Source: Yersinia artesiana (GTDB taxonomy: Bacteria > Pseudomonadota > Gammaproteobacteria > Enterobacterales > Enterobacteriaceae). Taken from it: DNA of 64,000 nt. Positions 25,339-52,706 of the stretch are shown here, one piece after another. The DNA lies in NCBI RefSeq assembly GCF_902726545.1, contig NZ_CACVAD010000001.1, positions 62,001 to 126,000 on the forward strand, given 5' to 3'. How positions within the stretch are numbered: position 1 is the stretch's first letter; every line of letters begins with the position of its first letter. Below the pieces are notes generated by a model. That model ran no database searches and was not told the origin of the DNA. It saw only the letters and a list, made by a program, of their open reading frames with translations. The translations under genes were made by a program, and so were the position numbers.

Positions 25339-27954
25339 TTAGGCCGCTAATGCTTTGGTTATCTTCTCGTACAAATCACCGGATAAATTATCCAATGCTT
25401 TCAATTGTTCCAAAGCCTGACGCATCAGGGCCTGACGACCTGAGTCATAGCGTTTCAAACGAATCAATGGCTCAATCAAACGAGCGGCAACCTGTGGGTT
25501 ACGAGTATTCAAATCACTGAGTATTTCTACCAGGAATTGATAACCGCTGCCGTCAGTGGCGTGGAATGCGGCCGGATTACCGGAAGCAAAACTACCAATC
25601 AACGAACGGGTACGGTTGGGATTACTCAGACTAAATGCAGGATGCTTAAGTAAAGCGCGTACCTGTGTCAAAACATCCGCCGCAGGGCTGGTGGCTTGCA
25701 AAGCGAACCACTTATCCATCACCAAACCATCATGATTCCAGCGCACGTCAAAGGCCGCTAATAATTCATCGCGGCAAGGCAACTGGGCAGCAACTGCGGC
25801 GGCTAATGCTGCCAGCGAGTCCGTCATGTTGTCAGCCTGATGATATTGAGAAGAAACAAGTTTATTCGCAAACTCTGCATCACCAAACGCCAAATAGCTC
25901 AGGCAAGTATTGCGCAATGATCGTTTGGCAATATCGCGGTGCTCAATACGATATTCAGGAGTGATATTCGCCACATAGACGGCCAATAATTCGTCCGATA
26001 ATTCATTTGCCAGACAACGGGTAATAGCCTCATGCACCGCACTGATAGCTTGCGGATCAATCGTGGTAAACAGTTCCGCAATTTCATTTTCTGATGGCAA
26101 TGTCAGGATCTGCGCGGCTAACGCGGGATCAAGATTGTCATCAAGCAATATGGCACGGAAAGCATCAGCGACGTGGTTAGGTAAACTCAGCGGCTGTTTT
26201 TGTTGGTATTTGGCAACATTAAGTTTGATATAGGTTGCCAGCAAACTTTGCGCCGCATCCCAACGGGAAAATTCATTGCGCGCATGCTGCATGAGGAACG
26301 TGAGTTGCTGATCGCTGTAAGTGTAATCCAGTTTAACCGGCGCAGAGAATTCACGCAGCAGCGACGGGATCGGGGTGTGCTCGACATTATCAAAGGTAAA
26401 GGTCTGTTCGGCCTCTGTTACATTCAAAACATGATGAACCGGTAAACCATTGCGCTGCAATGCAATCACATTACCTTTGCTGTCATAGAGTTCAATATCC
26501 AATGGGATATGCAATGGCAGTTTTTCTGGTTGATCCGCGGTTGGCAACGTTTTCTGGCTAACGTGCAGATGATATTGCTGTTTTTCAGCATCATAATCAT
26601 CACGCACTGTTAATATTGGCGTTCCGGACTGGCTATACCAGCGGCGGAATAAAGACAGATCGACATTAGATGCATCTTCCATTGCCTGTACGAAATCATC
26701 ACAGGTCGCCGCACTGCCATCATGGCGCTCAAAATAGAGCTGCATACCGGCCTGGAATTGCTGCTCACCCAGTAAAGTATGCATCATACGAATAACTTCT
26801 GACCCTTTCTCATACACAGTTAAGGTATAGAAGTTGTTCATCTCGATGACTTTATCTGGGCGAATGGCATGGGCCATCGGGCTGGCATCTTCGGCAAACT
26901 GCGCTGCACGCATAACTCGCACGTTTTCAATACGATTAACTGAGCGCGAGCCTAAATCAGAACTGAATTCCTGATCGCGGAATACGGTTAAACCTTCTTT
27001 CAAACTTAATTGGAACCAATCACGGCAGGTGACCCGGTTACCGGTCCAGTTATGGAAATATTCATGACCAATAACCGCTTCAATGTTCAGATAATCTTTG
27101 TCTGTCGCCGTTTCTGCTTTTGCCAGAACATATTTTGAGTTGAAAACATTCAACCCTTTATTTTCCATGGCCCCCATATTGAAGAAATCAACTGCCACAA
27201 TCATATAAATGTCGAGGTCATACTCCAGACCAAAACGGGTTTCATCCCACTTCATGGAGTTCTTCAATGAGGTCATCGCCCAGTCGGCACGATCCAGATT
27301 ACCGCGATCAACAAACAGCTCCAGCGCAACTTCACGCCCCGAACGGGTAATGAACTTATCACGCAACACATCAAAATCACCGGCGACCAAAGCAAACAGG
27401 TAACAAGGTTTTGGGAACGGATCTTCCCATTTGACCCAATGGCGGCCATCATCCAGAACACCCCGCCCCACCGGGTTACCGTTGGAGAGTAAATAAGGAT
27501 AAAGTGTTTTATCAGCAACAATACGAGTGGTAAAACGCGCCAGCACATCAGGACGGTCTAAATAATAGGTAATATGACGGAAACCTTCGGCTTCACATTG
27601 GGTACAGAGCGCCTCACCGGAAAGATATAATCCCTCAAGTGCGCTGTTCGTTGCAGGGTGAATATCATTGACGATTGTCAGTGTAAAATGCGCGGGTAAT
27701 TGTTCAATAACCAGCGAATTATCCTGCAATTGGTAATGCGGCCATGCTTGCCCGTCAACGCTGATACTCACGAGCGTTAAATCCTCACCATCTAAAACCA
27801 GCGGTGTCACGTCTGCCGTTTGACGTTTTACCTGGCTGATCGCCGTTACCGTAGTTTTTTGCGCATCAAGTGCGAAATCCAAATTGATATCGGTGATAGT
27901 GTAATCCGGCGATTTATAATCGTGACGGTATTTAGCTTGCGGCTGTTGTGTCAT
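25339..27954 (-). CDS. pepN: Aminopeptidase N (M1 metallopeptidase)
   Basis: Broad-specificity cytosolic aminopeptidase, 871 residues (E. coli 870). It carries the exopeptidase motif GAMENKG and the zinc site HEYFHNWTGNRVTCRDWFQL...EGLTVFRDQEF, with HExxH plus a distal Glu. The beta-sandwich N-terminus and the long helical C-terminal domain are complete. The ATG at 27954 gives MTQQPQAKYRHDYKSPDY, the family start; 27 upstream in-frame residues are not conserved. It is divergent from pncB with a 310-bp spacer. Confidence 0.98.
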   Translation of the reverse strand: MTQQPQAKYRHDYKSPDYTITDINLDFALDAQKTTVTAISQVKRQTADVTPLVLDGEDLTLVSISVDGQAWPHYQLQDNSLVIEQLPAHFTLTIVNDIHPATNSALEGLYLSGEALCTQCEAEGFRHITYYLDRPDVLARFTTRIVADKTLYPYLLSNGNPVGRGVLDDGRHWVKWEDPFPKPCYLFALVAGDFDVLRDKFITRSGREVALELFVDRGNLDRADWAMTSLKNSMKWDETRFGLEYDLDIYMIVAVDFFNMGAMENKGLNVFNSKYVLAKAETATDKDYLNIEAVIGHEYFHNWTGNRVTCRDWFQLSLKEGLTVFRDQEFSSDLGSRSVNRIENVRVMRAAQFAEDASPMAHAIRPDKVIEMNNFYTLTVYEKGSEVIRMMHTLLGEQQFQAGMQLYFERHDGSAATCDDFVQAMEDASNVDLSLFRRWYSQSGTPILTVRDDYDAEKQQYHLHVSQKTLPTADQPEKLPLHIPLDIELYDSKGNVIALQRNGLPVHHVLNVTEAEQTFTFDNVEHTPIPSLLREFSAPVKLDYTYSDQQLTFLMQHARNEFSRWDAAQSLLATYIKLNVAKYQQKQPLSLPNHVADAFRAILLDDNLDPALAAQILTLPSENEIAELFTTIDPQAISAVHEAITRCLANELSDELLAVYVANITPEYRIEHRDIAKRSLRNTCLSYLAFGDAEFANKLVSSQYHQADNMTDSLAALAAAVAAQLPCRDELLAAFDVRWNHDGLVMDKWFALQATSPAADVLTQVRALLKHPAFSLSNPNRTRSLIGSFASGNPAAFHATDGSGYQFLVEILSDLNTRNPQVAARLIEPLIRLKRYDSGRQALMRQALEQLKALDNLSGDLYEKITKALAA

Positions 27955-28264
27955 AAAAACCCTTTGGACGTCATCTGTGGATATGATTATCAAGTCTGTA
28001 TTTAGGGTCGTTTTAGCGCCAAACTTTGGGTTCAAAACCTTATCTTCAAAGTACGGCTGCCAGCGACTTCGCCTTAGACTCAGATAGTCTTGTCAATGTA
28101 TCACAATTGTGAAAAAAACCCAGGTGAGCGCCGATGGCACGTTTAATCCTAGACCTCGGATGAGCATTTGTGGTGTGATGAGGCTTCAATAACAGGACAA
28201 TACCGGTATACTTCTGCGACTTTATACTGTGGAAAATGCTCCTACGAGGATGCTATATAGCGCC
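27955..28264. promoter_or_regulatory. Divergent pepN-pncB intergenic region
   Basis: No gene is supported in these 310 bp. It must hold the promoters of pepN (leftward) and pncB (rightward). A 12-bp palindrome TCACAATTGTGA lies at 28101-28112, but its half-sites point outward, unlike a CRP site. I could not find a clear NadR box for pncB. Confidence 0.4.
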
Positions 28265-48887: not shown

Positions 48888-49640
48888 TTACTTATTGAGC
48901 ATAATGGCTCTAACTCTGTCTAAATCTTCTTGAGTATCAACGCCAACTGCCGGCACCGCTTTTGCTACAGCTACGTGAATTTTCTCACCGTACCACAACA
49001 CGCGCAACTGCTCTAACAGCTCAATTTGCTCAAGTTGACTCGGTGCCCAATTAACGTAACGGCGCACAAAGCCGGCGCGATAAGCATAAATACCAATATG
49101 ACGTAAGAAGCAATTACCAATGGTTTCTTTAGACTGCGCAAAGCGCTCTCTTTCCCACGGGATAGTTGCGCGCGAGAAATACAGCGCATAGCCTTGTGCA
49201 TCCATCACCACTTTCACGGCATTAGGGTTAAAGGCTTCCTCACTGCTTTCAATCGGCACAGCCAATGTTGCCATGCCCGCACTGGAGGCAGCCAAATTAT
49301 CTGCAACCTGGCGGATAATCATTGGTGGCACCAGTGGCTCATCCCCTTGCACATTGACGATAATGTCATCATCAGCAAAACCATAGCGTTCAATGACTTC
49401 AGCCAAGCGCTCGGTACCAGATTGATGATCGGCACGGGTCAGACACACTTCGCCGCCCGCCGCCTCAACCGCTTTCACCACTTCCGGATGGTCTGTTGCC
49501 ACAATCACCCGAGAAGCACCTGACTCCAACGCTCGCTCCATCACATGTACCACCATCGGTTTGCCAGCGATATCCGCCAGTGGCTTACCTGGTAGACGGG
49601 TTGAAGCATAACGGGCGGGAATTATAGCAATGAAACTCAT
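48888..49640 (-). CDS. kdsB: 3-deoxy-manno-octulosonate cytidylyltransferase
   Basis: Activates Kdo to CMP-Kdo for the lipopolysaccharide inner core. The 250-residue enzyme has the nucleotide-binding [19 protein letters not shown]-terminus, the [16 protein letters not shown] and [12 protein letters not shown] segments, and [12 protein letters not shown] at the end. The start overlaps the ycaR stop (ATGA). In E. coli the run msbA-lpxK-ycaQ-ycaR-kdsB is continuous; here ycaR-kdsB is separated from msbA-lpxK by 3 kb of other genes. Confidence 0.97.
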
Positions 49641-49819
49641 GCGTGTTTCTCATCAATTGACAGTGGACGGGCTTCATTTTCTAACAATACCGGGATGCCA
49701 TCACGCACCGGGTAAGCCAGATTGTCAGCTTTGCATACCAATTCAAGGTTTTCTTTATTGAAGTACAACTTACCGTTGCAGACAGGACAGGCAACGATTT
49801 CGAGTAAACGGTGGTCCAT
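49637..49819 (-). CDS. ycaR: YcaR (UPF0434/Trm112-like) small zinc-ribbon-type protein
   Basis: A 60-residue protein starting [20 protein letters not shown] with one CxxC pair, as in E. coli YcaR and Trm112-like proteins. Its function is not established; family members may act as small partners of other enzymes. The ATG at 49819 has GGAGGATGT before it. It is translationally coupled to kdsB. Confidence 0.93.
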
Positions 49820-50001
49820 ACATCCTCCAAAATGGAGTTCAGCCAGCAGGAAAGTGGTCGAGGATACCATATCCGCCGATGCAGGTTAACTGCGTCGATA
49901 CCATCACGTATATCAGGTATTGATAACAAAGAGTTATGTTAATCAATCTCAAGATAAGTAAATACAACCCACGGCCGGGATAATAAATGTTGGTTTTGTT
50001 A

Positions 50002-50030
50002 TTGATATGTTGAATTTCGAGGAGTATTAT
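50002..50030 (+). promoter_or_regulatory. Strong sigma70-type promoter of a candidate small transcript
   Basis: TTGATA at 50002-50007 and TATTAT at 50025-50030 are separated by an optimal 17 bp; five of six bases match consensus in each hexamer. Initiation is predicted near 50037, directly at the CRP site. No long gene starts downstream on this strand. Confidence 0.65.
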
Positions 50031-50032
50031 TT

Positions 50033-50048
50033 TGTGACTGACATCACA
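50033..50048 (+). promoter_or_regulatory. Consensus CRP-binding site overlapping the predicted start site
   Basis: TGTGACTGACATCACA fits TGTGA-N6-TCACA without a mismatch. Its centre (50040.5) lies about 4 bases after the predicted +1, a position that should repress the rightward promoter. It could in principle also act on a leftward promoter toward ycaR. Confidence 0.75.
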
Positions 50049-50071
50049 CAATTATGTACATCGAGTAAGAA

Positions 50072-50122
50072 ATGAAAGTATTCCATAAAATCATTGCGCT
50101 GTTTGCTAACTTCAGCAACTAA
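50072..50122 (+). CDS. Candidate 16-residue amphipathic peptide
   Basis: The frame reads MKVFHKIIALFANFSN and stops with TAA. Residues V3, F4, I7, I8, F11 and F14 fall on one helical face, with K2, H5, K6, N13 and N16 on the other, so an amphipathic membrane-surface helix is plausible. GAGTAA lies six bases before the ATG. It begins about 35 nt into the predicted transcript. I do not recognise a named homologue; translation is inferred only. Confidence 0.4.
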   Translation: MKVFHKIIALFANFSN

Positions 50123-50189
50123 ACCGCAAAAAACAAATAGAAGCACCTGCAAAAAGGCCCGGCGGCAGAAAAAACTGTCGAACAGAGGC

Positions 50190-50227
50190 AAAAAAACTAA
50201 CGGCTACCCTTGGGTAGCCGTTTGCTT
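50190..50227. terminator. Bidirectional terminator between the small transcript and the cold-shock gene
   Basis: A perfect 11-bp stem (AACGGCTACCC with GGGTAGCCGTT) and a two-base loop. The minus strand has a long T-run (TTTTTTT) after it, ending the cold-shock mRNA. The plus strand has TTTGCTT, enough for the rightward transcript. Confidence 0.88.
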
Positions 50228-50435
50228 AGAAAGCGATCACATCTGCTGCTGACGGCCCGTGAATACTACGATAAGTAGAGAATTCAACGTCCTGCCCTTC
50301 ACTCAGTGATTTATTTTTGGTGTTGGCGATAGCCGTCTTGCTGACATATACATCCAAACTACCGTCGTGTGGTGAAATGAAACCGTAGCCTTCAGACTGA
50401 TTGAACCATTTCACGCGACCCATTTTTAACGTCAT
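50226..50435 (-). CDS. Cold-shock-like protein with altered RNP2
   Basis: A 69-residue cold-shock-domain protein. MGRVKWFNQSEGYGFISPHDG keeps the strand-1 motif and RNP1 (GYGFIS). RNP2, normally VFVHFSAI, reads VYVSKTAI, losing the His and Phe that stack on nucleic acid bases. HGPSAADVIAF closes the fold. Nucleic-acid binding is therefore probably weaker or different from CspA/CspE. The ATG at 50435 is preferred (AAAGGAAATTT upstream) over an upstream start that adds eight residues. A terminator with a long T-run follows. A second, frameshifted csp gene lies 215 bp upstream on the same strand. Confidence 0.88.
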   Translation of the reverse strand: MTLKMGRVKWFNQSEGYGFISPHDGSLDVYVSKTAIANTKNKSLSEGQDVEFSTYRSIHGPSAADVIAF

Positions 50436-50544
50436 AATAAATTTCCTTTTACTGGGCATCCTAACAACTCATTTTTATTTATTGTTTAGATGCAGTTGCC
50501 CATCCTAAAGTTTTCTGATTAAACCTCTATGAGCTTGATTATAT

Positions 50545-50571
50545 GAAAAAACCCGCATAAGCGCGGGTTTT
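50545..50571 (-). terminator. Terminator of the frameshifted csp gene
   Basis: On the minus strand AAACCCGC and GCGGGTTT pair around six bases and are followed by TTTT. It separates the two cold-shock genes. Confidence 0.88.
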
Positions 50572-50650
50572 AGAATTTTGCTATCCGGAGAGATGATTAA
50601 CACATCAGCATCATCAATTTCCAGAATCATTCAAACATTATATTTCTGTA

Positions 50651-50859
50651 TTACAGAGCAACAACGTTTGCAGCAGCCGGCCCGCGCGGCTGTCTTGGAT
50701 GGTATATTCAACACGCTGGCCTTCAGCCAAAGTCTTGAAACCATCAGTTGCGATTGCGGAGAAGTGAACAAATACATCTTTACCGCCATCATGCTGTTCA
50801 ATAAAACCAAAACCTTTAGCTTCGTTGAACCACTTAACCTGACCAGTCTTCTTAGACAT
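50651..50859 (-). pseudogene. CspE-type cold-shock gene with a one-base deletion near its 3' end
   Basis: The frame from the ATG at 50859 reads [20 protein letters not shown] with intact RNP1 (GFGFI) and RNP2 (VFVHFSAI) up to VEYTIQDS. It then departs from the family into [16 protein letters not shown] and stops late, at 50638. Adding one C at the CC near 50688 restores [13 protein letters not shown] and a TAA at 50651-50653, giving exactly 69 codons, the CspE length. The last beta strand is lost as written. This is either a recent real frameshift or a sequencing/assembly error at a short C run. AAAGGTAAGAATT gives a good ribosome-binding site. Confidence 0.8.
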
Positions 50860-51299
50860 AATTCTTACCTTTACTATCAAATACAAATACTAATAAATCT
50901 GCCATAAGGCACTCGACGCCATTGGAATAGCGGGTCTGCAACAGGAACATTACTTATGGGAGTTACTTATCGGAGATACTAGAAGGTTCGTCTTTGAAGC
51001 GGCATCAAAAGATAACGTCTTGGGAGGAACTGCTTTACTTTACTCTCGTACACTCTTACACATAAATAGGTCTGTAATACAGGCCGGTGGCTATTTACTC
51101 ACAAAACATATCTCCATGCAACTATTTTATCTGGGAATATGTTGCCAGCAACAGCATCAATGAGATGCCACGCATATAAAACCAATATTATCCGCGAGAT
51201 CCACACAATTTTTCGAGATGAACCTAAAATAAAAACTGAACATCTACGTCACTATTTGGCAATTTTGCGCCTCAGCGGGCCAAAAGGAGCAACCTGATT
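50860..51299. promoter_or_regulatory. Divergent region between the csp gene and hglS
   Basis: These 440 bp have no supported gene. They must hold the leftward csp promoter, probably with the long leader usual for cold-shock mRNAs, and the rightward hglS promoter. I could not identify a cold-box. TTTGGC at 51255 and GCCAAA at 51279 could pair just before the hglS ribosome-binding site AAAGGAG. Confidence 0.45.
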
Positions 51300-52706
51300 A
51301 TGATCCACCAAACATTTGTCCAACCCGACGAGATTCGCGCCAGATTCTCCAGTGCAATGTCGGATATGTATCAGGTTGAAGTTCCGTTATACGGGGCTTT
51401 ATTGCAATTAGTCGCCGAAACGAATCGCCACACTATGGAGCAACAGCCAGAGCTGAGTCGCCATTTACGTCAAACCGGTGAAATTGAACGATTAAATCTG
51501 GAACGGCATGGCGCAATCCGGGTGGGAACTGCCGCCGAACTGGCCACCTTGCGCCGTTTGTTTACCGTTATGGGGATGTTTCCTGTTGGCTATTACGACC
51601 TGGCTCCCGCTGGGGTTCCCGTTCACTCTACAGCATTTCGTGCTGTGCATGAGGTGTCATTACAAGCCAGCCCATTCAGAATTTTTACTTCTTTATTGCG
51701 TTTGGAATTGATTGAACAACCGCAATTACGGCAACGGGCTGCGGATATTCTTGCTAAAAGAAACATTTTCACGCCACGCGCTATTGAATTGATTGTTAAG
51801 CATGAAACCGCCGGGGGGCTGACCAGCCAGGAGGCAGATGATTTTATTATTCAGTCACTGGAAACATTCCGCTGGCATAGCCAGGCGACTGTCAGTGCAG
51901 AGGTTTATCAGCAACTGCATGACCAGCATCGATTAATTGCCGATGTTGTGGCTTTTAAGGGGCCGCATATTAACCACTTGACCCCAAGGACACTGGATAT
52001 AGACGCAGTACAAATTGCCATGCCACAGCACAATATTCCCCCTAAAGCAGTAATCGAAGGGCCACCTCCACGCCGTTGCCCAATACTGCTGCGACAAACC
52101 AGTTTCAAGGCCATGGAGGAAAAAGTTGCTTTCGTATCGCCTGATGGCAAAATTGTTCAAGGACATCATACTGCCCGTTTTGGTGAAATAGAGCAGCGCG
52201 GTACGGCACTGACGGCGAAAGGCCGTCATCTCTATGACCGTTTGCTGCAAGCAGCCCAAGATCAACTGCAAGTTCCGGCAAATGAGAACAATGCGGCACA
52301 ATATATGGCTATTCTTAGCGAGCAGTTTAGCCAATTTCCGGATGATTACCCGACAATGCGGGCGGAGAAACTCGCTTTCTTCCGCTATTTCCCGACAGAA
52401 AAAAGCCTTAAAGCCTCAGTAGACCTAATACAAGGTTTAACCTTAGATGAGTTAATTGATGCCGGATTCATCCAATTCGAGCCGTTGGTTTATGAAGATT
52501 TTCTGCCAGTCAGTGCCGCCGGTATTTTCCAGTCAAATTTAGGCGATAAAGGGCAAAGTCATTTTACCGGGCACTCTAGCAAGCAGAATTTCCAACAGGC
52601 TTTGGGAGCTGAAGTTATCGATGAACTGCAATTATATGAAGAAACTCAGCAACGTTCGCTAATGGCATGCGCCGCAGCCCTGCAGCTCACATCCCTGAGT
52701 CTCTAA
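51300..52706 (+). CDS. hglS: 2-oxoadipate dioxygenase/decarboxylase family (HglS/YdcJ, DUF1338)
   Basis: A 468-residue protein close to E. coli YdcJ (447) and to Pseudomonas HglS, which converts 2-oxoadipate to D-2-hydroxyglutarate in lysine breakdown. His70 and Arg74 (ERHGAIR), His227 (HINHLTPRTLDID) and Glu297 (RFGEIEQRG) fit the metal- and substrate-binding residues described for HglS, as I recall them. EDFLPVSAAGIFQSNLG is strongly conserved. AAAGGAG lies well placed before the ATG. No other lysine-degradation gene is adjacent, so the pathway here is inferred. It converges on lpxK with six bases between, at the place where E. coli has ycaQ. Confidence 0.85.
   Translation: MIHQTFVQPDEIRARFSSAMSDMYQVEVPLYGALLQLVAETNRHTMEQQPELSRHLRQTGEIERLNLERHGAIRVGTAAELATLRRLFTVMGMFPVGYYDLAPAGVPVHSTAFRAVHEVSLQASPFRIFTSLLRLELIEQPQLRQRAADILAKRNIFTPRAIELIVKHETAGGLTSQEADDFIIQSLETFRWHSQATVSAEVYQQLHDQHRLIADVVAFKGPHINHLTPRTLDIDAVQIAMPQHNIPPKAVIEGPPPRRCPILLRQTSFKAMEEKVAFVSPDGKIVQGHHTARFGEIEQRGTALTAKGRHLYDRLLQAAQDQLQVPANENNAAQYMAILSEQFSQFPDDYPTMRAEKLAFFRYFPTEKSLKASVDLIQGLTLDELIDAGFIQFEPLVYEDFLPVSAAGIFQSNLGDKGQSHFTGHSSKQNFQQALGAEVIDELQLYEETQQRSLMACAAALQLTSLSL

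Follow-up and report, generated by a model that had tools for sequence, protein, structure and literature searches.

A conserved 16-codon frame behind a CRP palindrome in Yersinia artesiana: a probable CRP-repressed small messenger RNA with relatives at other sites

Between the ycaR and csp genes of Yersinia artesiana lies a short element in which a promoter, a CRP palindrome and a 16-codon frame follow one another on the plus strand, and which was originally predicted to be a CRP-repressed small transcript for an amphipathic peptide. The window here means the full 64 kb stretch of Y. artesiana DNA that was analysed; in its numbering the element consists of the following features.

50002 to 50007, plus strand: -35 hexamer TTGATA, within the longer conserved block TGTTATTGATATGTTGAA; TTGATA in 22 and TTGAAA in 2 of 24 Yersinia loci
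50025 to 50030, plus strand: -10 hexamer TATTAT after a spacer of 17; TAnnAT at spacing 17 in all 24 Yersinia loci
50033 to 50048, plus strand: CRP palindrome TGTGACTGACATCACA, covering the predicted start (about 50036 to 50037), a position expected to block RNA polymerase
50063 to 50069, plus strand: weak Shine-Dalgarno-like GAGTAAG, read from the sequence; identical at all seven positions in 19 of 24 Yersinia loci
50072 to 50122, plus strand: small gene MKVFHKIIALFANFSN with its stop, 16 codons; ATG at 50072, TAA at 50120 to 50122
50142 to 50154, plus strand: conserved 3' untranslated block AGCACCTGCAAAA, putatively a base-pairing seed
50199 to 50222, no strand assigned: hairpin ACGGCTACCCTTGGGTAGCCGT, a strong terminator for the convergent csp gene, with a weak T-tail for a plus-strand transcript

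The frame is conserved and coding. A DNA search recovered the element in 24 of 25 Yersinia genomes, and in all 24 loci the frame is unbroken, closing with TAA (22), TAG (1) or TGA (1). Its 12 variable columns fall three at first, none at second and nine at third codon positions, so that the codon changes in relatives, proposed originally as a check, are mostly synonymous. In frame, the ratio of nonsynonymous to synonymous change (pN/pS) comes to 0.073, whereas frame +1 gives 1.6 and frame +2 has no synonymous change; these values come from an alignment of 8 distinct sequences over codons 2-16 and are free of search-pattern bias. Across genera, 26 distinct class A sequences give 0.16, a low value that the gathering pattern favours, and 1.4-2.0 in the other sense frames; the antisense frames of this set give 1.7, 6.4 and 0.39, the third positions of the last being the same wobble bases. 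A chance short frame within a conserved non-coding control region would be in keeping with the brevity of the frame and its weak ribosome-binding site, but against these differences between frames the probability of such an accident is close to negligible. The encoded peptide is amphipathic as a helix, as had been proposed, with a hydrophobic moment (muH) of 0.51 that 1.0% of shuffles equal; nine further peptides, among them AzuC, have helical moments that 0.9-12% of shuffles reach.

The promoter architecture is retained together with the frame. The promoter TTGATA-17 bp-TATTAT and the perfect TGTGA-N6-TCACA over its predicted start are both present as originally described, and TGTGACTGACATCACA is the sole perfect site of this kind in the window, where 0.08 would be expected. 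Of the 24 Yersinia loci, 23 have a perfect palindrome and the remaining one a single mismatch, and the -10 hexamer takes the forms TATTAT, TAATAT, TATCAT, TAGTAT, TAAAAT and TAGAAT, with the spacing of 17 held despite small insertions that shift the alignment. All 67 class A loci scanned (24 from Yersinia, the 24 best others and 19 named ones, with overlap of species) have TTGnnn-17-TAnnnT and then, 1-6 nt later, a CRP site with at most one mismatch (63 perfect, 4 with one), a fit that is partly by construction because the scan chose the best-fitting spacer between 16 and 18 and demanded TA...T. In the window by itself a promoter scan of 1 kb does not rise above chance, with 2 hits where 3.2 would be expected, nor does the RNA fold stand out (z -1.5); the element stands above chance because it is conserved, in nearly all Yersinia genomes and, with promoter and CRP site, in the 67 class A loci scanned. 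Conservation of the block TGTTATTGATATGTTGAA (49997-50014) at the -35 hexamer exceeds the needs of a promoter, and the block, which we take to resemble the spaced GTTA repeats of ArcA sites, is mostly retained in loci L055-L057. The start codon lies inside a small predicted hairpin (50071-50095) whose outer pair is altered on both sides in L022-L024, one event at most.

Outside Yersinia the same arrangement recurs at the same place. A sequence-only model built from the 24 Yersinia loci (R1) was run on 392 genomes of the family and gave a match at E <=0.5 in 159 of them; 44 matches outside Yersinia reach 1e-8, and the best 24 of these 44, from 13 genera, all adjoin YcaR and KdsB. When named genomes were searched with nothing but the peptide, 122 stretches fitted the pattern and 19 of them were confirmed as loci: 12 Yersinia species, Rouxiella badensis, R. 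silvae, Serratia sp. M24T3, Ewingella americana, Hafnia alvei, Enterobacillus tribolii and one metagenome-assembled genome. With the exception of Hafnia, these (18 of 19) adjoin YcaR-KdsB. Since the peptide alone chose them, the CRP site is an independent test in these loci, and all 19 have it at 22-40 nt upstream of the ATG, 17 as a perfect palindrome and 2 with a single mismatch. Among control windows of equal size taken from these loci, 2 of 1919 contain it. Related Yersinia make up 12 of the 19, and the independent events are therefore fewer than the count. The promoter spacing and CRP site are thus retained in relatives, as the original prediction had asked to be checked. A plain DNA search of 197 genomes of the order gave short weak matches in 14 genomes besides the window's own.

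The CRP site might instead activate another promoter, or the conserved segment might be the control region of a neighbouring gene. Activation by CRP is commoner than repression, and ycaR-kdsB lies on the minus strand, running away from the CRP site. However, in all 67 class A loci scanned the site lies 1-6 nt past the -10 hexamer, a repressing position, and a scan of 49640-50640 lists nothing else resembling a promoter at a distance suited to activation. The gene downstream is convergent and differs between Yersinia and L055-L057, being lpxK in the latter, and the coding signature demands a product; this explanation is accordingly judged very improbable. Nor is the frame a leader peptide, because there is no same-strand gene downstream of it before csp.

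Two features of a CRP-repressed small-protein mRNA are thus found together, a promoter-blocking CRP site and a conserved short coding frame, and we consider it probable, from sequence comparison, that the window element is a free-standing cAMP-CRP-repressed small mRNA for a conserved amphipathic peptide, working like AzuCR or VcdRP. Occupation of the start point is a classic way for CRP to block initiation. An RNA of about 150-190 nt would begin near 50037; at high cAMP, CRP bound to the palindrome would keep the gene off, and on a preferred sugar the fall in cAMP would allow transcription and translation of the 16-residue peptide. The peptide would most likely act at the inner membrane or at a protein surface and may adjust carbon metabolism through an enzyme, a transporter or a regulator, as is reported for VcdP, AzuC and SpfP, and in Yersinia the conserved CACCTGC block may add a base-pairing role for the RNA. 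We infer the repression at this locus, the sugar signal, the membrane contact and the existence of a target from these comparisons, and the metabolic role in low-cAMP cells is put forward as a best guess, no more.

Several points weigh against this interpretation. One Yersinia genome, G022 (locus L025), is without the element: only the csp end was matched and the ycaR-csp interval is empty of it. In L090 (genome G316), which lies outside the 67 loci, a 16-codon frame stands beside YcaR-KdsB and no CRP site was found before it. The ycaQ-ycaR gap of E. coli K-12 is 51 bp and therefore has no room for the element, and no member was found in four Escherichia-like genomes with the R2 model described below (best score 20.4 bits). 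The frame, with its start and stop codons slightly corrected to 50072 and 50120-50122, and its GAGTAAG are present as originally predicted, but as a ribosome-binding site the latter is weak. The predicted hairpin is likewise present, but the T-rich tail ascribed to it is not borne out for the plus strand: the good T-run, AGTTTTTTTG, follows the hairpin on the minus strand, where the convergent csp gene ends, whereas the scan did not list the plus-strand tail GTTTGCTTAG as a terminator and gave none of good quality for that strand. Of all parts of the proposed gene the terminator is the weakest. Finally, transcript, transcription start and peptide are predictions from sequence at this locus, and the metabolic role is drawn by analogy.

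The RNA rather than the peptide could be the main actor, as a CRP-repressed base-pairing small RNA (sRNA) that acts through its conserved AGCACCTGC block, the peptide being a minor by-product. AGCACCTG is present in all 24 Yersinia loci that have the element while the flanking sequence past the stop drifts, CACCTG turns up in 15 of 53 representatives where 0.8 would be expected (9 of the 15 being related Yersinia), and Ysr206, a sister copy discussed below, is classed as an sRNA. Against this, of the 44 representatives outside Yersinia class A 38 lack CACCTG and 6 have it near the frame, whereas the peptide changes little in its amino acids (the cross-genus pN/pS given above, which the gathering pattern favours), and the RNA fold is nothing out of the ordinary. 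The proposal that the RNA is the principal product is thus rather unlikely. A type I toxin, that is, a short hydrophobic membrane-harming peptide under antisense RNA control, might be suggested by a peptide that is short, fairly hydrophobic and encoded alone. However, the mean hydrophobicity is modest (0.33) with charged residues in the first half, a simple scan of 49640-50640 shows no minus-strand promoter-like site, the same interval has no long repeats, and the locus is the same across genera, all of which leaves very little chance that a toxin is encoded. The probable reading remains a small mRNA whose peptide is the principal product.

The element belongs to a wider family. A model of all classes, comprising CRP site and peptide (R2), finds members at E 1e-7 in 117 of the 392 family genomes and 44 of 154 genera, having been trained on some of the genomes that it finds; in a sample of 197 genomes of the order it gave, outside the family, no match above 26.2 bits, a level treated as noise. 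Nineteen stretches with weaker R1 matches lie at other sites and most have a frame of the same kind. Such paralogues are found between atpC and glmU, between an LpxP-type acyltransferase and a xanthine/uracil-type permease, and, in Yersinia, between ychJ and rssA, the genes being named with NCBIfam and Pfam for L093, L078, L087, L094 and partly L092, and by eye for the others. Their peptides share MKL[IL][HNK]K[IV][IV]AMF with variations, often extended to ...FGTFNH. In 15 of the 17 paralogues examined an extra CRP palindrome lies upstream of the promoter in addition to that over the start, L093 and L096 having one only. Among seven Yersinia genomes run with R2, the window's own included, four (G000, G003, G004 and G009) carry both the kdsB and the ychJ copies, G022 the ychJ copy only, and G016 and G021 the kdsB copy only, G016 with a further match of 27.6 bits. 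The L092 copy, used as a query, had no match in the E. coli collection.

The ychJ-rssA copy of the window's own genome (L078) is Ysr206 (Rfam RF02852), at 212.7 bits against a cut-off of 124. The start of the Ysr206 model coincides with the CRP palindrome, an indication that the RNA begins at that point. Against the same model L092 scores 46 bits (E 6e-9), below the cut-off, and L081 23 bits (E 0.06); the window between 49900 and 50300 has no Ysr206 match in Rfam up to E 5, and its copy is not Ysr206 itself. Kinship lies in the shared order of parts, a CRP palindrome over the start and then a peptide with the core MKLINKVIAMFEKMSVSFGTING, the two being paralogues in one genome. Unlike the window element, Ysr206 lies at ychJ-rssA, has two CRP sites and encodes 23 residues ending in FGTING in most species, within a longer RNA (312-position model) that is filed as an sRNA. 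Of 25 Yersinia genomes, 21 have a Ysr206 copy. Its frame has 4, 1 and 16 variable columns at the first, second and third codon positions and a pN/pS of 0.045 over 20 distinct sequences, somewhat flattered because the search pattern, which 20 of the 21 loci fit (L228 did not), favours synonymous change. On this codon pattern Ysr206, although filed as an sRNA, encodes a conserved peptide. CRP is reported to bind the Ysr206 promoter directly and cooperatively (Nuss et al., PMC4376681), and Ysr206 offers an experimental precedent for the CRP mechanism in the same regulon. In the available part of that report, detection solely in the crp mutant covers Ysr206 or, read strictly, just the two antisense RNAs named alongside it (PMC4376681).

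No description of the window locus in Yersinia was known when it was first noted, and none was found in the open-licence literature, the coordinate tables of Yersinia RNA-seq papers, which may hold the window RNA, lying outside that search; the paralogue Ysr206 is known. The Yersinia sRNA literature covered, in the portions available, was PMC4376681, PMC3770706, PMC6478967, PMC6232918, PMC4585118 and PMC4773443. One RNA of Y. pestis from these accounts, sR066, is up without crp, has a CRP site over its transcription start and was later classed as a 5' untranslated region; by its behaviour it is a candidate for the window RNA. Rfam has no match for the window copy, and Pfam and NCBIfam have none for family relatives of at least 20 residues, the 16-mer being too short for them. 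The peptide family is new; its kind, the CRP-repressed small-protein mRNA, is already known.

Other features nearby were recorded on their own account. Between the element and lpxK stand csp genes and a gene for an HglS-type 2-oxoadipate dioxygenase (51300-52706, plus strand), a relative of which was found in all 12 named Yersinia loci but in none of the other 7. The cold-shock protein frame at 50638-50886 (minus strand) has end residues unlike those of 12 relatives with the frame, of 24 examined, owing to a frame change near the end or an assembly slip. Rfam matches place a cspA thermoregulator at 50623-51024 (minus strand), ahead of the second csp gene, and a PepN 5' untranslated region thermometer at 27925-28087 (minus strand).

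AzuCR, to which the element was originally likened without a claim of homology, remains a functional likeness. AzuC is also a short protein with an MKL start and a high helical moment, and CRP-like palindromes can be read near the azuCR promoter; it differs in its 28 residues, its yecJ-yecR locus and the placing of its CRP sites. Homology to AzuCR was considered and is not supported: R1 has no match at E 10 on four K-12 stretches, azuCR included, and R2 reaches at most 20.4 bits, at CRP palindromes beside azuC, in the four Escherichia-like genomes, three of which hold AzuC at 96-100% and the fourth of which is of the same genus. The AzuC model (NCBIfam NF033642), which gives AzuC itself 75.9 bits, has no match at E 1 for a 20-residue relative and three 23-residue paralogues, the 16-mer being too short to scan. 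Four family peptides aligned with AzuC have scores that 0.8-3.1% of shuffles equal (2.2% for the window peptide), uncorrected for the choice of pair. In the lpxP-permease operon (L081, L082, L086, L087 and L089) the micropeptide is followed by a second, 28-codon frame, e.g. MRVVRKINQILKALGKTYRGVNPHAIFR, with the length of AzuC and a similar end; three of these score 22-27 BLOSUM points against AzuC, a level that at most 4 of 20,000 shuffles reach, and the one scanned with the NCBIfam AzuC model has no match. This resemblance is suggestive. It is a tentative possibility that one ancient CRP-gated micropeptide family, with the core MKL.[HN]KIIAMF, occupies alternative sites (kdsB-ycaR, atpC-glmU, lpxP-permease and ychJ-rssA), with an AzuC-like 28-codon frame added at the lpxP site, Ysr206 being a peptide mRNA and E. 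coli AzuCR the remnant of a two-peptide operon that lost its first peptide.

SpfP of Spot 42 is presumably unlike the window 16-mer in sequence, and Spot 42 lies at another locus. In the parts of the sources available, AzuCR and Spot 42 are CRP-repressed, VcdRP of Vibrio cholerae is a CRP-repressed RNA whose small protein acts on central metabolism, VcdP activating citrate synthase, and GlpD is the reported target of AzuC (PMC8672173), while the 15-residue SpfP encoded by Spot 42 is reported to bind CRP (PMC11188072). The window element is like VcdRP in being a small-protein RNA under CRP control, here predicted. It departs from the VcdRP layout of a 29-residue protein, a CRP site upstream of the -35 hexamer and a four-cytosine seed (PMC8672173, in the part available), since its CRP site is downstream of the -10 hexamer and its conserved block is AGCACCTGC. 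The element would give an easy experimental handle, with one promoter and 16 residues, on peptide tuning of low-cAMP growth. CRP-repressed RNAs with very short proteins are known as single cases, namely AzuCR, Spot 42 and VcdRP; to these would be added a whole strongly conserved family across dozens of genera (44 of the 154 sampled), with Ysr206 recast as coding.
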